Part shown: in pieces, positions 23,015-33,877 of the stretch
Numbering within the stretch: the stretch's first letter is position 1
Layout: every line of letters begins with the position of its first letter
Origin: Clostridia bacterium
Lineage (GTDB): Bacteria > Bacillota > Clostridia > RGIG6154
Length of the DNA stretch: 45,811 nucleotides
NCBI GenBank assembly: GCA_017410375.1
Contig: JAFQQW010000005.1
Location: 1-45,811, forward strand
Direction of reading: 5' to 3'
Program-made: the position numbers and the translations under genes
The notes under the pieces: model-generated
Database searches by the model: none
What the model was told of the DNA's origin: nothing
What the model saw: the letters and a program-made list of their open reading frames with translations, nothing else

Positions 23015-23043
23015 TTGACAAACGGAAAAAGATGTGGTATCAT
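23015..23043 (+). promoter_or_regulatory. Promoter of the rplU-rpmA operon
   Basis: A perfect TTGACA (23015-23020) is followed after 17 nt by TATCAT (23038-23043). Confidence 0.87.
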
Positions 23044-23047
23044 TGAG

Positions 23048-23116
23048 TGTAACCGCTCGAAAATGGTTTATGAAGTGCGAAAGCCACCGGTATCGGCGAG
23101 TCTAAAATACAGGAGG
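23048..23116 (+). ncRNA. Ribosomal protein L21 leader (candidate)
   Basis: The ~80-nt 5' leader of rplU contains a short stem (ctcg near 23057 with cgag near 23097) enclosing a second stem (tggttt with aaagcca), and ends at the GGAGGTG ribosome site. This matches the expected place of the L21 leader, an autoregulatory mRNA element of Firmicutes. I call it from position and folding. A covariance-model hit would be needed to confirm. Confidence 0.55.
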
Positions 23117-29081: not shown

Positions 29082-29110
29082 TTTACAAAACAGGAAATAT
29101 GTGCTACAAT
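29082..29110 (+). promoter_or_regulatory. Promoter of the structured RNA/zinc-ribbon gene
   Basis: TTTACA (29082-29087) and TACAAT (29105-29110) are spaced by 17 nt, right after the leuS terminator. The predicted start, near 29117, coincides with the 5' base of a long hairpin. Confidence 0.8.
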
Positions 29111-29116
29111 AAAAAT

Positions 29117-29284
29117 GCCAAGTAATTTCATATTTAGAATCACTATAAGTGTGCGTTTTTCTTTTAGGTAAAAATGCATGCTCTGTTTTGCATACTTGTA
29201 GTGATATTTGTATGTGTGAAATTGCTTGGCGGCTCGGAGCTGTGCGTTTTTCATGCGTAGCTTCGGCTACGCATTTTTTATTTT
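29117..29284 (+). ncRNA. Candidate structured RNA with intrinsic terminator
   Basis: The predicted transcript begins with a 14-bp closing stem (29117-29130 with 29217-29230). An asymmetric internal loop follows (8 nt at 29131-29138, 11 nt at 29206-29216). Then comes a 16-bp stem (29139-29154 with 29190-29205) containing two G-U pairs, and an apical region holding a small hairpin. About 25 nt later it ends in a terminator: stem atgcgtagc/gctacgcat, loop ttcg, then a T-rich tail (29253-29284). An 11-nt direct repeat (gtgcgtttttc at 29151 and 29242) could allow alternative pairing with 29170-29178. The shape (closing stem, bubble, distal stem) recalls 6S RNA, but I recognise no family sequence. 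Confidence 0.6.
29253..29284 (+). terminator. UUCG terminator after the structured RNA
   Basis: A 9-bp GC-rich stem with a stable TTCG tetraloop is followed by ttttt-a-tttt. It precedes the zinc-ribbon gene by 27 nt, so that gene is expressed only by read-through or controlled antitermination. Confidence 0.9.
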
Positions 29285-29311
29285 ACAAGGAAGAAAAAAG
29301 GAGGAAGAAAA

Positions 29312-29806
29312 GTGAAGGAACTGTTTGAGTTGACAGCAAGAGAGCGACCTAAAACGTTGGAAGATTGTGCAAGACCGGATCCGGTGGTTTCTTGTTTGTA
29401 CAGTTGGGCAAATACATTAAGACATTGGGGGAGATATGCTTGCATTGTATTCGTATTGTTTGGTATTCTCGATGGGGTGACGATTGCATCTGCTGTAAAA
29501 GAAAAAGCTTTTTTGGCGTTTGTGATAGAATTTTTGCCCGATTTGATTACGGGAGTTATTGCATACCTCTCGTTTGCTTGTGTCGGTGTATTGTTGATTG
29601 CTTTTGCAAATGTTATTTACAACACCAGAATAACAGCAAACTTTAAGATGTATAACGAATTGCCTGTGCCGATAGTTAAAGTAGCTGTAAAACCGGATGC
29701 CAAAGCATATGAGGCGGGATATTGGGTGTGTAAAGAATGTAAAACTAAAAATCCGGCAGGTGCAAACATGTGTTACAAATGCGGATTGAGTGAAAAACTG
29801 TTTTAA
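29312..29806 (+). CDS. Membrane protein with C-terminal zinc ribbon (164 aa)
   Basis: A GTG start at 29312 follows AAAGGAGG. Two hydrophobic segments (about residues 44-62 and 76-104) predict membrane helices, and the C-terminus is a four-cysteine zinc ribbon, 'CKECKTKNPAGANMCYKCG' (CxxC-x12-CxxC), probably cytoplasmic. The family is not recognised. Such tails occur in many small Clostridia membrane proteins of unknown role. The gene lies directly behind a strong terminator and structured leader, so its expression is probably attenuated. It has its own downstream terminator. Confidence 0.82.
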   Translation: MKELFELTARERPKTLEDCARPDPVVSCLYSWANTLRHWGRYACIVFVLFGILDGVTIASAVKEKAFLAFVIEFLPDLITGVIAYLSFACVGVLLIAFANVIYNTRITANFKMYNELPVPIVKVAVKPDAKAYEAGYWVCKECKTKNPAGANMCYKCGLSEKLF

Positions 29807-31074: not shown

Positions 31075-31110
31075 GCAAATAAAAAAGACCGCAACGCGGT
31101 CTTTTTTTAT
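31075..31110. terminator. Bidirectional terminator
   Basis: A stem aaaaaagaccgc/gcggtctttttt with a 3-nt loop (31081-31107) serves the convergent stalk-protein gene (+) and the SGNH operon (-). Confidence 0.92.
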
Positions 31111-32186
31111 TTAATGGATTCTAGTGCTTGCTTTAAAACAGGCTCAATGCCTTTTGCCATAAGATGAAAACCGAGGTCGTTGGGATGACAACCATCGAAG
31201 GTGCAATCTGCGTGGTCGTGTTCGTTTTTGAAGAAGGTTTCTCCATCAATAAAATAAACATTTTTGTCACCACGAGCAAGTGCATTTTGGTATGTCTGAT
31301 AGACAACGGCACGACGTTTGATGCTGTTTTCTATTCCTTCTTTGCCGTGTGCAGGGTGTCCGAAATCAGGCTTGGTAATCATAATAATCGGTATTTCGGG
31401 ATGTTTTTTGCGCACGGTTAAAAATACATTCTCGTGGGTGTTTTGAAGATGCTCAAGGGTGGGGGCGTTGTGTTCGTAATCCAATACAAAAACAGACATA
31501 TCAAGGCTTGCAAGATATTCTGCTATTTCCGGTTCACCCTTTGCGTTTCCTGAAAAGCCTAAGTTGATATAATCAAAATCAAGCGCACGGGAAAGAATGG
31601 AAGTGTACTGCAAACCGGGTCTGGAGGCACATCCGCCCTGCGTAATAGATGAGCCGTAAAACACAACCGGTTTTTGGTATGTATAGGGTTTTGCAGGTTT
31701 AAACACCGCATTTTTTTGTAAACCGATATACACATCGGCTACATTATTATATAGTGGGAAGTTGATTGTGATTTCACGCATGCCTTTGTCAGGGAAATCC
31801 CAATAGGTGTCATAGTCCTTGGTTGTATTGGGGGGCGGAACCAACGGACGGAAAAACAGATTGTCTCCGTAAATATCAAATCCGGCAGCACCGGTAAGGG
31901 TCATGTTATTAGGTCTTGCGATACCGTTGGTTTTGCAGGAAATGGCAATGTAGTCTGAATCTGTAACAAACCGAAGTCTGCCACCTGAGGTGTTCTCGTT
32001 CAGCCAAATGAGATTTTGGCTGATTTTTTCTGCAACTGATTTGTCCATGCGAAAAAACTGGGTTTCATCATACATCAAACCGTATAAGCACCAATCGTTT
32101 TCCTTAACATTGTAAAACACAACATCTTTTTTGTCTATCGCTTCGGGAACTGTAAAATTTTTATCAATTTTAGAAATATCGCTCAT
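31107..32186 (-). CDS. SGNH/GDSL hydrolase, paralogue 2 (359 aa)
   Basis: This is an esterase of the SGNH fold: 'FYGSSITQGGCASRPG' (about residues 178-193) is the block I nucleophile motif, 'GFSGNAKGEPE' supplies the block III Asn, and 'CTFDGCHPNDLGF' holds the catalytic Asp and His. An N-terminal ~170-residue beta-sandwich precedes it, as in the acetylxylan-esterase-like SGNH proteins. No signal peptide is seen, so it is probably cytoplasmic. It starts 3 nt after its close paralogue, whose last codons supply the AAGGAG ribosome site. The likely role is deacetylation of a sugar or glycan (inference). Confidence 0.9.
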   Translation of the reverse strand: MSDISKIDKNFTVPEAIDKKDVVFYNVKENDWCLYGLMYDETQFFRMDKSVAEKISQNLIWLNENTSGGRLRFVTDSDYIAISCKTNGIARPNNMTLTGAAGFDIYGDNLFFRPLVPPPNTTKDYDTYWDFPDKGMREITINFPLYNNVADVYIGLQKNAVFKPAKPYTYQKPVVFYGSSITQGGCASRPGLQYTSILSRALDFDYINLGFSGNAKGEPEIAEYLASLDMSVFVLDYEHNAPTLEHLQNTHENVFLTVRKKHPEIPIIMITKPDFGHPAHGKEGIENSIKRRAVVYQTYQNALARGDKNVYFIDGETFFKNEHDHADCTFDGCHPNDLGFHLMAKGIEPVLKQALESIK

Positions 32187-32189
32187 TTT

Positions 32190-33266
32190 TTAACACTCCT
32201 TTTTCAGGGATTCTAGTGCTTGTTTTAAAACAGGCTCGATGCCTTTTGCCATGAGCGCAAAGCCGTGGTCGGTGGGATGAACGCCGTCTACTGTGCAATC
32301 GCCCGGGTCGGTTTCGTTTATCCAGAAGCTTTCGCCATCTACAAAGTATACGTTTTTGTCTCCGTTTTCAAGGGCATTTTTGTAGGTGGTATAAATGATG
32401 TCGCGACGTTTTATATCCTCTTCCTTTGTGTTGTAAGGGATACCAAAATCGGGCTTGCTAATCATGATAACAGGCAATTCAGGTTGTTTTTCGCGAATGG
32501 TTTTAAACAGCTGTTCGTGCCGTTCCTGCAATCCTTCCACACTTGAGTTGTGGTCGTAATCCATGACAAAAACGGACATATCAAGGTTTGCAAGATAGTC
32601 AGCCATAGCAGGTTCCCCTTTGGCATTTCCCGAAAAGCCTAAATTGAGGTGGTCAAAATCAAGCTTTCGGGCAAGTATTGCAGAATACTGACAGCCCGGT
32701 CTGGAAGCACATCCGCCTTGCGTAATGGACGAGCCGTAAAACACCACCGGCTTTTGGTATGTATACGGCTTTGCAGGCAGGAAGGTAGCATCCTTCTGCA
32801 AACCGAGATACACCTCATCAACGGGGTTATAAAGAGGGAAATGTATCAAAATTTCGCGCGGTTTACGGTCGGGGAATTCCCGATAGGTATCCATACCGCC
32901 TACAGCATCTACTGTGGTGATTAAAGGACGGTAAAATATGTTGTCTGCATAAATATCAAAGCTGGAGCTGCCCGAAAGAGGCATATGATTCATGTGATGT
33001 TCAAGGCTTCCTTTAAAAGAGATGGCAATATACTCTGAATCGGTAACAAAACGAAGTCTGCCTCCCGATGTGTGGTAGTTCAAGACTTCAACGCCTGTGC
33101 TGACTTCTTTTGCAATCTCTTTGTCCATACGGTAAAAGCATTTGTTATCATATTTCAAACCGTGTAAGCACCAGTCATTTTCTTTAATGTTGTAAAACAC
33201 CACATCGTCCTTGTCAATGGTTTGGGAAACATCAAAGTTTTTATCAATCTTGGAAATAGGATTCAT
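32190..33266 (-). CDS. SGNH/GDSL hydrolase, paralogue 1 (358 aa)
   Basis: It has the same architecture as the following gene and is closely related throughout. Both start with 'SKIDKNF', and both contain 'YGSSITQGGCASRPG', 'GFSGNAKGEP' and a 'DGxHPxDxGF' catalytic end. I chose the ATG at 33266, with GGGAGG 10 nt upstream, over a TTG at 33284 that would include the ribosome site. The start overlaps the stop of the O-acetyltransferase gene by 4 bp (ATGA), so translation is coupled. An enzyme that adds acetyl groups and two that may remove them in one operon suggests acetyl-sugar turnover (inference). Confidence 0.9.
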   Translation of the reverse strand: MNPISKIDKNFDVSQTIDKDDVVFYNIKENDWCLHGLKYDNKCFYRMDKEIAKEVSTGVEVLNYHTSGGRLRFVTDSEYIAISFKGSLEHHMNHMPLSGSSSFDIYADNIFYRPLITTVDAVGGMDTYREFPDRKPREILIHFPLYNPVDEVYLGLQKDATFLPAKPYTYQKPVVFYGSSITQGGCASRPGCQYSAILARKLDFDHLNLGFSGNAKGEPAMADYLANLDMSVFVMDYDHNSSVEGLQERHEQLFKTIREKQPELPVIMISKPDFGIPYNTKEEDIKRRDIIYTTYKNALENGDKNVYFVDGESFWINETDPGDCTVDGVHPTDHGFALMAKGIEPVLKQALESLKKEC

Positions 33267-33877
33267 TTTTTTAAAGCCTCCCAATCAATTTTTTTGGTTT
33301 TGTAGTAGTATTCTTTGTCATGGTCGCCGATTTCGCGTAATACTTTACAAGGGTTGCCTACCGCAACAACATTTGCGGGGATATCTTTGGTAACAACACT
33401 TCCTGCACCGATGACCGAATTGTCTCCGATGGTAATGCCGGGCAGGATTACAGAATTGGCACCAATCCAGACGTTATTTCCAATGTGCACGGGAATGTTG
33501 TACTGTGCCACATCTCTTCTCAAATCGGGATTTATCGGGTGTCCTGCGGTGGCAACGGTGACGTTCGGACCAAACATAACCGAATCCCCTACAAAAATAT
33601 CGGTATCGTCCACCAACGTTAAATTAAAATTTGCATATACATTGTTGCCAAAATGTGTGTGACAGCCCCAGTTTGCGTGCAGGGGCGGCTCTACATAACA
33701 GTTTTTGCCAACTTCAGCTAACAACTCTTTTAAAAGGAAGGCGCGTTTTTCGAATTCTGAGGGACGTGTCTGATTAAAGTCGTATAATTTCTCCAGACAT
33801 AAAATCTGTTCTTTCATCAGTGCTTCGTCATCACAAAAGTAGATTTCTCCGCTTTTCATGCGTTCTTTTGCGTTCAT
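33263..33877 (-). CDS. Sugar O-acetyltransferase, maltose/galactoside acetyltransferase type (204 aa)
   Basis: This LacA/Maa/NodL-family enzyme transfers acetyl from acetyl-CoA to a sugar hydroxyl. The N-terminal Mac domain ('MNAKERMKSGEIYFCDDEALM') is followed by a left-handed beta-helix of hexapeptide repeats with the catalytic His in 'ATAGHPINPDLR' and the late coils 'NVWIGANSVILPGITIGDNSVIGAGSVV'. Full length. It starts 4 nt after the DUF6062 gene, with GGGAGG overlapping that stop codon, and overlaps the SGNH gene downstream. Confidence 0.95.
   Translation of the reverse strand: MNAKERMKSGEIYFCDDEALMKEQILCLEKLYDFNQTRPSEFEKRAFLLKELLAEVGKNCYVEPPLHANWGCHTHFGNNVYANFNLTLVDDTDIFVGDSVMFGPNVTVATAGHPINPDLRRDVAQYNIPVHIGNNVWIGANSVILPGITIGDNSVIGAGSVVTKDIPANVVAVGNPCKVLREIGDHDKEYYYKTKKIDWEALKK

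Follow-up and report, generated by a model that had tools for sequence, protein, structure and literature searches.

Several riboswitch classes, among them the fluoride, ZTP/ZMP and preQ1 classes, control transcription termination through a pseudoknot. The ZMP riboswitch is one such case (PMC7337938). Candidate structured RNAs have also been computed in GC-IGR motif surveys (PMC8632094, PMC11109978) and in a microbiome RNA survey (PMC8040213), whose main texts include some candidates that have terminators or sit directly upstream of genes; term searches of these same main texts returned no motif with the features described below. Apart from a possible unnamed entry in supplementary motif lists, Rfam and the texts accessible to full-text search held no earlier description of the element.

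Here we report a structured RNA from a 45,811-nucleotide stretch of Clostridia DNA (the window), which is apparently one copy of an undescribed RNA-switch family of uncultured gut Clostridia. Like the fluoride, ZTP and preQ1 riboswitches, it is a 5' leader where a pseudoknot between loop and linker and the helix of the expression platform compete, with a terminator and a start codon directly behind them. It differs from them in being larger (about 165 nt), in its long closing stem and missing Rfam match, in a pseudoknot whose 3' strand doubles as the antiterminator strand, and in its targets, which are various envelope and small proteins and do not make up a single metabolic pathway. Because leaders with pseudoknots and antiterminators are already known, we regard it as a new variant; what appears to be novel is an undescribed family of such leaders. 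We propose that the element is best explained as a cis-acting 5' leader and transcription attenuator of the gene behind it, a reading based on comparative sequence analysis to which we assign a probability of roughly 0.75.

Two other described systems bear comparison. T-box leaders of Firmicutes likewise choose between a terminator and an antiterminator; no Rfam T-box match was found, and the sampled targets are not aminoacyl-tRNA or amino-acid genes. 6S RNA, which the original prediction had offered beside an attenuator, resembles the element as a long bulged hairpin of about 170-190 nt, whereas the element sits in a leader position and carries a terminator and a pseudoknot of its own. That it is a 6S RNA or a member of another described family is scarcely credible: the 6S model (RF00013) has no match at the locus, its sole match in the genome lies on another contig (C16; 75.8 bits, above cut-off), and Rfam 15 gave no family above the gathering cut-off for the element, either in the window or at 20 homologue loci. 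Permissive Rfam settings added nothing beyond weak, partial or chance-like hits. Elsewhere in the window, positions 23041-23113 match the Rfam L21 ribosomal protein leader, an ordinary known leader.

The region 29100-29300 has a fold energy of -69.8 kcal/mol, compared with -43.6 (sd 3.5) in shuffles (z -7.5). The RNA is predicted to start at 29116, 5 nt past a sigma-70-type promoter, and to end at a UUCG terminator. A covariance model (R1) was built from 27 aligned copies with the pseudoknot left out. The parts of the locus are as follows.

29082-29110, + strand: sigma-70-type promoter, with TTTACA at 29082-29087, a 17-nt spacer and TG-TACAAT at 29105-29110; in the same position in 124 of 131 homologues
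29116-29279, + strand: structured leader RNA, as judged by fold energy and an R1 match at 29115-29280 (140.5 bits)
29116-29131, + strand: closing stem, 5' strand TGCCAAGTAATTTCAT, pairing with 29216-29231 over 16 bp
29140-29154, + strand: distal and apical stem, 5' strand TCACTATAAGTGTGC, pairing with 29190-29204 over 15 bp including G-U pairs
29151-29161, + strand: repeat copy 1, GTGCGTTTTTC, a U-rich 5' strand for which the apical A-strand is a possible partner within the loop
29170-29184, + strand: apical A-strand AAAAATGCATGCTCT, the 5' strand of the proposed pseudoknot
29190-29204, + strand: apical and distal stem, 3' strand GCATACTTGTAGTGA, pairing with 29140-29154
29216-29231, + strand: closing stem, 3' strand GTGAAATTGCTTGGCG, pairing with 29116-29131
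29236-29252, + strand: linker GGAGCTGTGCGTTTTTC, holding repeat copy 2 (29242-29252); its alternative partners are the A-strand (giving the pseudoknot) and the 5' arm of the terminator (giving the antiterminator)
29253-29279, + strand: intrinsic terminator ATGCGTAGC-TTCG-GCTACGCAT-TTTTT, a hairpin at 29253-29274 followed by the U-run
29300-29305, + strand: ribosome-binding site GGAGGA
29312-29806, + strand: downstream gene with a GTG start, encoding a 164-aa membrane protein with a C-terminal zinc ribbon

The promoter hexamers with their 17-nt spacing, the hairpin with closing and distal stems and G-U pairs, the strong UUCG terminator and the 11-nt direct repeat had all been predicted, and each is present at the locus. 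Chance alone would give one promoter-like site in the region; among homologues the promoter occupies the same place in 124 of 131, as against 41% of shuffled sequences (at most 4 mismatches to the two hexamers). Its spacer is 17 nt in 113 homologues, and in 113 the end of the -10 element lies 4-5 nt upstream of the stem. In the minimum-energy fold, positions 29236-29247 of the linker pair with the 5' arm of the terminator to give an antiterminator, and the terminator itself is absent. This pairing in the lowest-energy fold was the first hint of a switch.

Covariation among homologues had been proposed as a check on the structure, and the helices do covary. Across the 27 aligned RNAs, 95.2% of cells are paired, compared with 85.7% in shuffled and 32-55% in slid alignments, and 28 of 42 pairs have changed on both sides, compared with 13.8 after shuffling (0 of 500 shuffles). 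Such double changes occur at 10 of the 12 modelled pairs of the closing stem, at all 7 modelled pairs of the apical stem and at 6 of 9 terminator pairs. The pseudoknot helix is 94.9% paired, with both-side changes at 5 of 14 pairs; variation in the antiterminator helix is mostly of the G-U kind, with both-side changes at just 3 of 10 pairs. Since R1 was built without the pseudoknot, its matches were not selected for that helix, and variants found later in the same genome appear on inspection to keep it (AAAAAGCG opposite CGCUUUUU in L161; AAAAUACA opposite UGUAUUUU in L158). Outside the nested helices, GGUAAAAA, CUCUGUUUU and AAUAU are conserved, which would be compatible with ligand binding by a riboswitch.

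The original prediction had suggested that the direct repeat might support alternative pairing, and this is borne out by the linker, which holds repeat copy 2 and co-evolves with both the apical strand and the terminator arm. Duplex energies of own and swapped strands were compared in 123 parsed RNAs with 1000 permutations, a test that is inflated by kinship among the sequences. The apical:linker duplex averaged -15.36 kcal/mol for own strands and -13.89 (sd 0.16) for swapped ones (0 of 1000), and the duplex of the linker with the terminator 5' arm -14.40 and -12.00 (sd 0.20) kcal/mol (0 of 1000). No difference was seen in the control pairing of apical strand and terminator arm (-6.53 own, -6.48 swapped). 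In a non-redundant test, five pseudoknot positions beside the A/U tract were paired at 0.79 versus 0.68 (sd 0.022; 0 of 5000). A register-fixed count of the pseudoknot gave a weak excess (0.683 versus 0.591, sd 0.026), which we attribute to shifts of register in six-U linkers; trimming of the tract gave the 0.79 figure. The apical strand also matches its own upstream U-rich strand slightly better than swapped ones (-6.66 kcal/mol, swapped -6.23; 0 of 1000), while the control of U-strand against linker gave 670 of 1000 permutations. As both copies of GTGCGTTTTTC are complementary to the same apical strand, they could compete for it. A U-A-U triplex of the loop U-tract with the pseudoknot was considered and dropped on reasoning alone: the loop would run antiparallel to the A-strand, a misfit for standard Hoogsteen pairing.

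Two conserved and mutually exclusive pairings are thus present, one of which disrupts the terminator, as is usual for attenuators. Mean energies of terminator (-14.8 kcal/mol) and antiterminator (-14.2 kcal/mol) are nearly balanced in the 123 RNAs, which is what a switch needs. With the loop cost of the pseudoknot left out, the terminator plus the apical-linker duplex (-15.4 kcal/mol) beats the antiterminator in 123 of 123.

Sequence comparison supports the family, its helices, the two competing pairings, the promoter, the terminator and the leader position; the assignment of off and on states, the order of folding and a signal that shifts the balance are what we infer from them. In the proposed model, transcription would begin at the foot of the closing stem and the hairpin would fold first, presenting the apical A-strand AAAAAUGCAUGCUC, so that the emerging linker GGAGCUGUGCGUUUUU meets two mutually exclusive partners. 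Pairing of linker and apical strand in a pseudoknot of about 14-15 bp would leave the terminator free to form, and the gene would be off. Were the apical strand unavailable, because the preceding U-rich strand, a ligand, a protein or an RNA occupied it, the linker would join the terminator 5' arm as an antiterminator and polymerase would enter the gene, turning it on. To form the pseudoknot, the linker has to fold back beyond the closing stem; the conserved AAUAU bulge may supply the bend that this would require. The model is concrete, with named strands, such as the apical AAAAAUGCAU and the linker, that are open to mutation.

The position of the copies relative to genes bears on whether the RNA acts in cis. 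A Shine-Dalgarno sequence and start codon lie 14-40 nt past the U-run in 68 of 127 copies, with a peak at 17-20 nt, in a set collected with R1 and a conserved core pattern, whose subtype is over-represented. Of the other copies in this set, 9 lead into a second, tandem copy, a candidate start at 41-120 nt is present in 21, and neither a nearby start codon nor a tandem copy was found for 29, so some copies may not be leaders. For comparison, when the far side of the element was read outward, 39 of 128 had a candidate start of any kind in the first 200 nt. In an independent genome of another family, the start codon lies 19-37 nt on in 12 of 20 copies, and a tandem copy follows in another 4. The sequence of promoter, structured RNA, terminator and nearby same-strand start codon is that of an attenuator. 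Start codons 17-20 nt past the U-run leave no space for a further promoter and mark the element as a 5' leader; transcripts of the gene would then have to originate at the leader promoter and read through the terminator.

A stand-alone small RNA acting in trans, with the genes behind it expressed independently or merely through leakage of the terminator, would account for the promoter and strong terminator, for the 29 of 127 copies with no start codon nearby (among them L002 and L003, the closest paralogues in the window's genome), and for conserved A-rich and U-rich single strands that could pair with other RNAs. We consider it unlikely, given the sharp 17-20 nt spacing, which has no space for another promoter, and a linker that stays complementary to its own terminator arm, a feature needless in a trans-acting RNA.

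Some copies show other arrangements behind the terminator. In L077, L088, L112 and L160 no usable long frame follows the first ribosome-binding site, and a second site with its start appears 60-100 nt farther along, which looks like the loss of a first gene or the insertion of a short frame. Among the copies that lack a leader-type start close by, about 11 (L128, L078, L099, L011, L002, L139, L019, L052, L022, L115 and L080) have a sequence immediately behind the terminator that could pair with the 3' strand of the closing stem, or with a closing-stem strand together with the start of the linker (for example ACTCCGATTGTTGTCACGCAA in L078); the strongest of these exceed their own shuffles and others are marginal.

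By DNA search, additional copies turned up in the window's genome and in 18 of 99 relatives. R1, whose E-values are rough, matched 14 copies in the window's genome (one more with filters off) and 97 of 391 sampled genomes of the class, representing 56 of 222 genera; ten chosen relatives hold 8-30 copies each. In a phylum-wide sample of 398 genomes R1 had no match outside the query genome. A strict DNA pattern located 80 loci in public genome contigs, all from metagenome-assembled Clostridia and many from herbivore guts, with record titles naming Clostridia, Oscillospiraceae, Ruminococcaceae, Eubacteriales and Monoglobus. The DNA pattern had no match in viral contigs, and phage and plasmid collections contained nothing similar to the element; a phage or plasmid origin was rejected on these grounds. 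If our reading is right, this would be a large undescribed class of RNA regulators, present in about a quarter of the sampled genomes of the class at up to about 30 copies per genome; its hosts are gut Clostridia represented largely by metagenome assemblies. A longer subtype (about 195-210 nt; L021, L029, L030, L162, L164 and L165) has an extended distal arm and the same linker and terminator.

Such copy numbers recall a dispersed MITE-like hairpin that carries promoter and terminator by chance, as do the tandem copies and the long inverted arms formed by the closing stem. The original prediction had named many copies in the genome as a sign of such a repeat; the copies exist, and a recent spread sits poorly with their divergence. 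The best same-genome copies are about 73-74% identical to the query with arms still paired through double changes, the distance to the start codon is fixed, and phage and plasmid collections gave no match, all of which makes a mobile repeat quite improbable. Diverged copies that keep helices, promoter and start-codon spacing fit a regulon better than a recently spread MITE.

Attenuation by a leader peptide, in which a ribosome stalled on a short frame shifts the antiterminator, could draw on the ATG found in 108 of 123 apical strands. We think this very improbable: a conserved translated short frame was not found, a Shine-Dalgarno-preceded frame of at least 5 codons before the linker occurring in just 8 of 123 RNAs, and several covarying variants lack ATG (AAAAACACAG, AAAAATACAG).

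What the proposed attenuators would control is varied. Among 60 downstream proteins, 12 have BspA-type leucine-rich repeats, 4 have dockerins and 3 contain DUF6273; RCC1, SLH, CAP, CHAP, an HtrA-type protease and an AbrB-type regulator are among those seen once, and the rest include lipoproteins, membrane proteins and small unknown proteins. In one genome (G274), secreted repeat proteins that are paralogues and have similar signal peptides possess one copy of the leader each, as do several AbrB-like proteins. The zinc ribbon of the window's own target has a weak RanBP-type match; a relative of this protein was found in 1 of 40 other genomes searched, in another family, and its locus had no leader match. 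If our reading is right, one RNA switch would govern a set of secreted, surface, membrane and small unknown proteins, and its signal would be searchable by standard riboswitch methods.

Because the apical strand of one leader can pair with the linker of another, a genome-wide network might control the surface-protein repertoire, with terminated leaders and gene-less copies acting in trans on other leaders so that members of surface-protein families affect each other's expression; we offer this as a speculative and distinctly unlikely extension.

Small proteins recur behind the leader. In the window's genome, L161, L163 and L166 precede three paralogous small proteins (MSEMYFNKEDFRKSITNRMIKTYISDAVW...), each with a leader of a divergent subtype (apical GUAAAAAGCGUAC). 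Members of one family of small cysteine-rich proteins (MIIDGPTGIELIPGNGGKDCPGNG...) lie directly behind the leader at L101, L117, L125, L133, L136, L141 and L030; that of L136, scanned singly, had no Pfam match. Farther along the window, on the minus strand at 31107-33284, two adjoining similar proteins (359 and 364 aa) both contain VVFYGSSITQGGCASRPG and look by eye like SGNH hydrolases.
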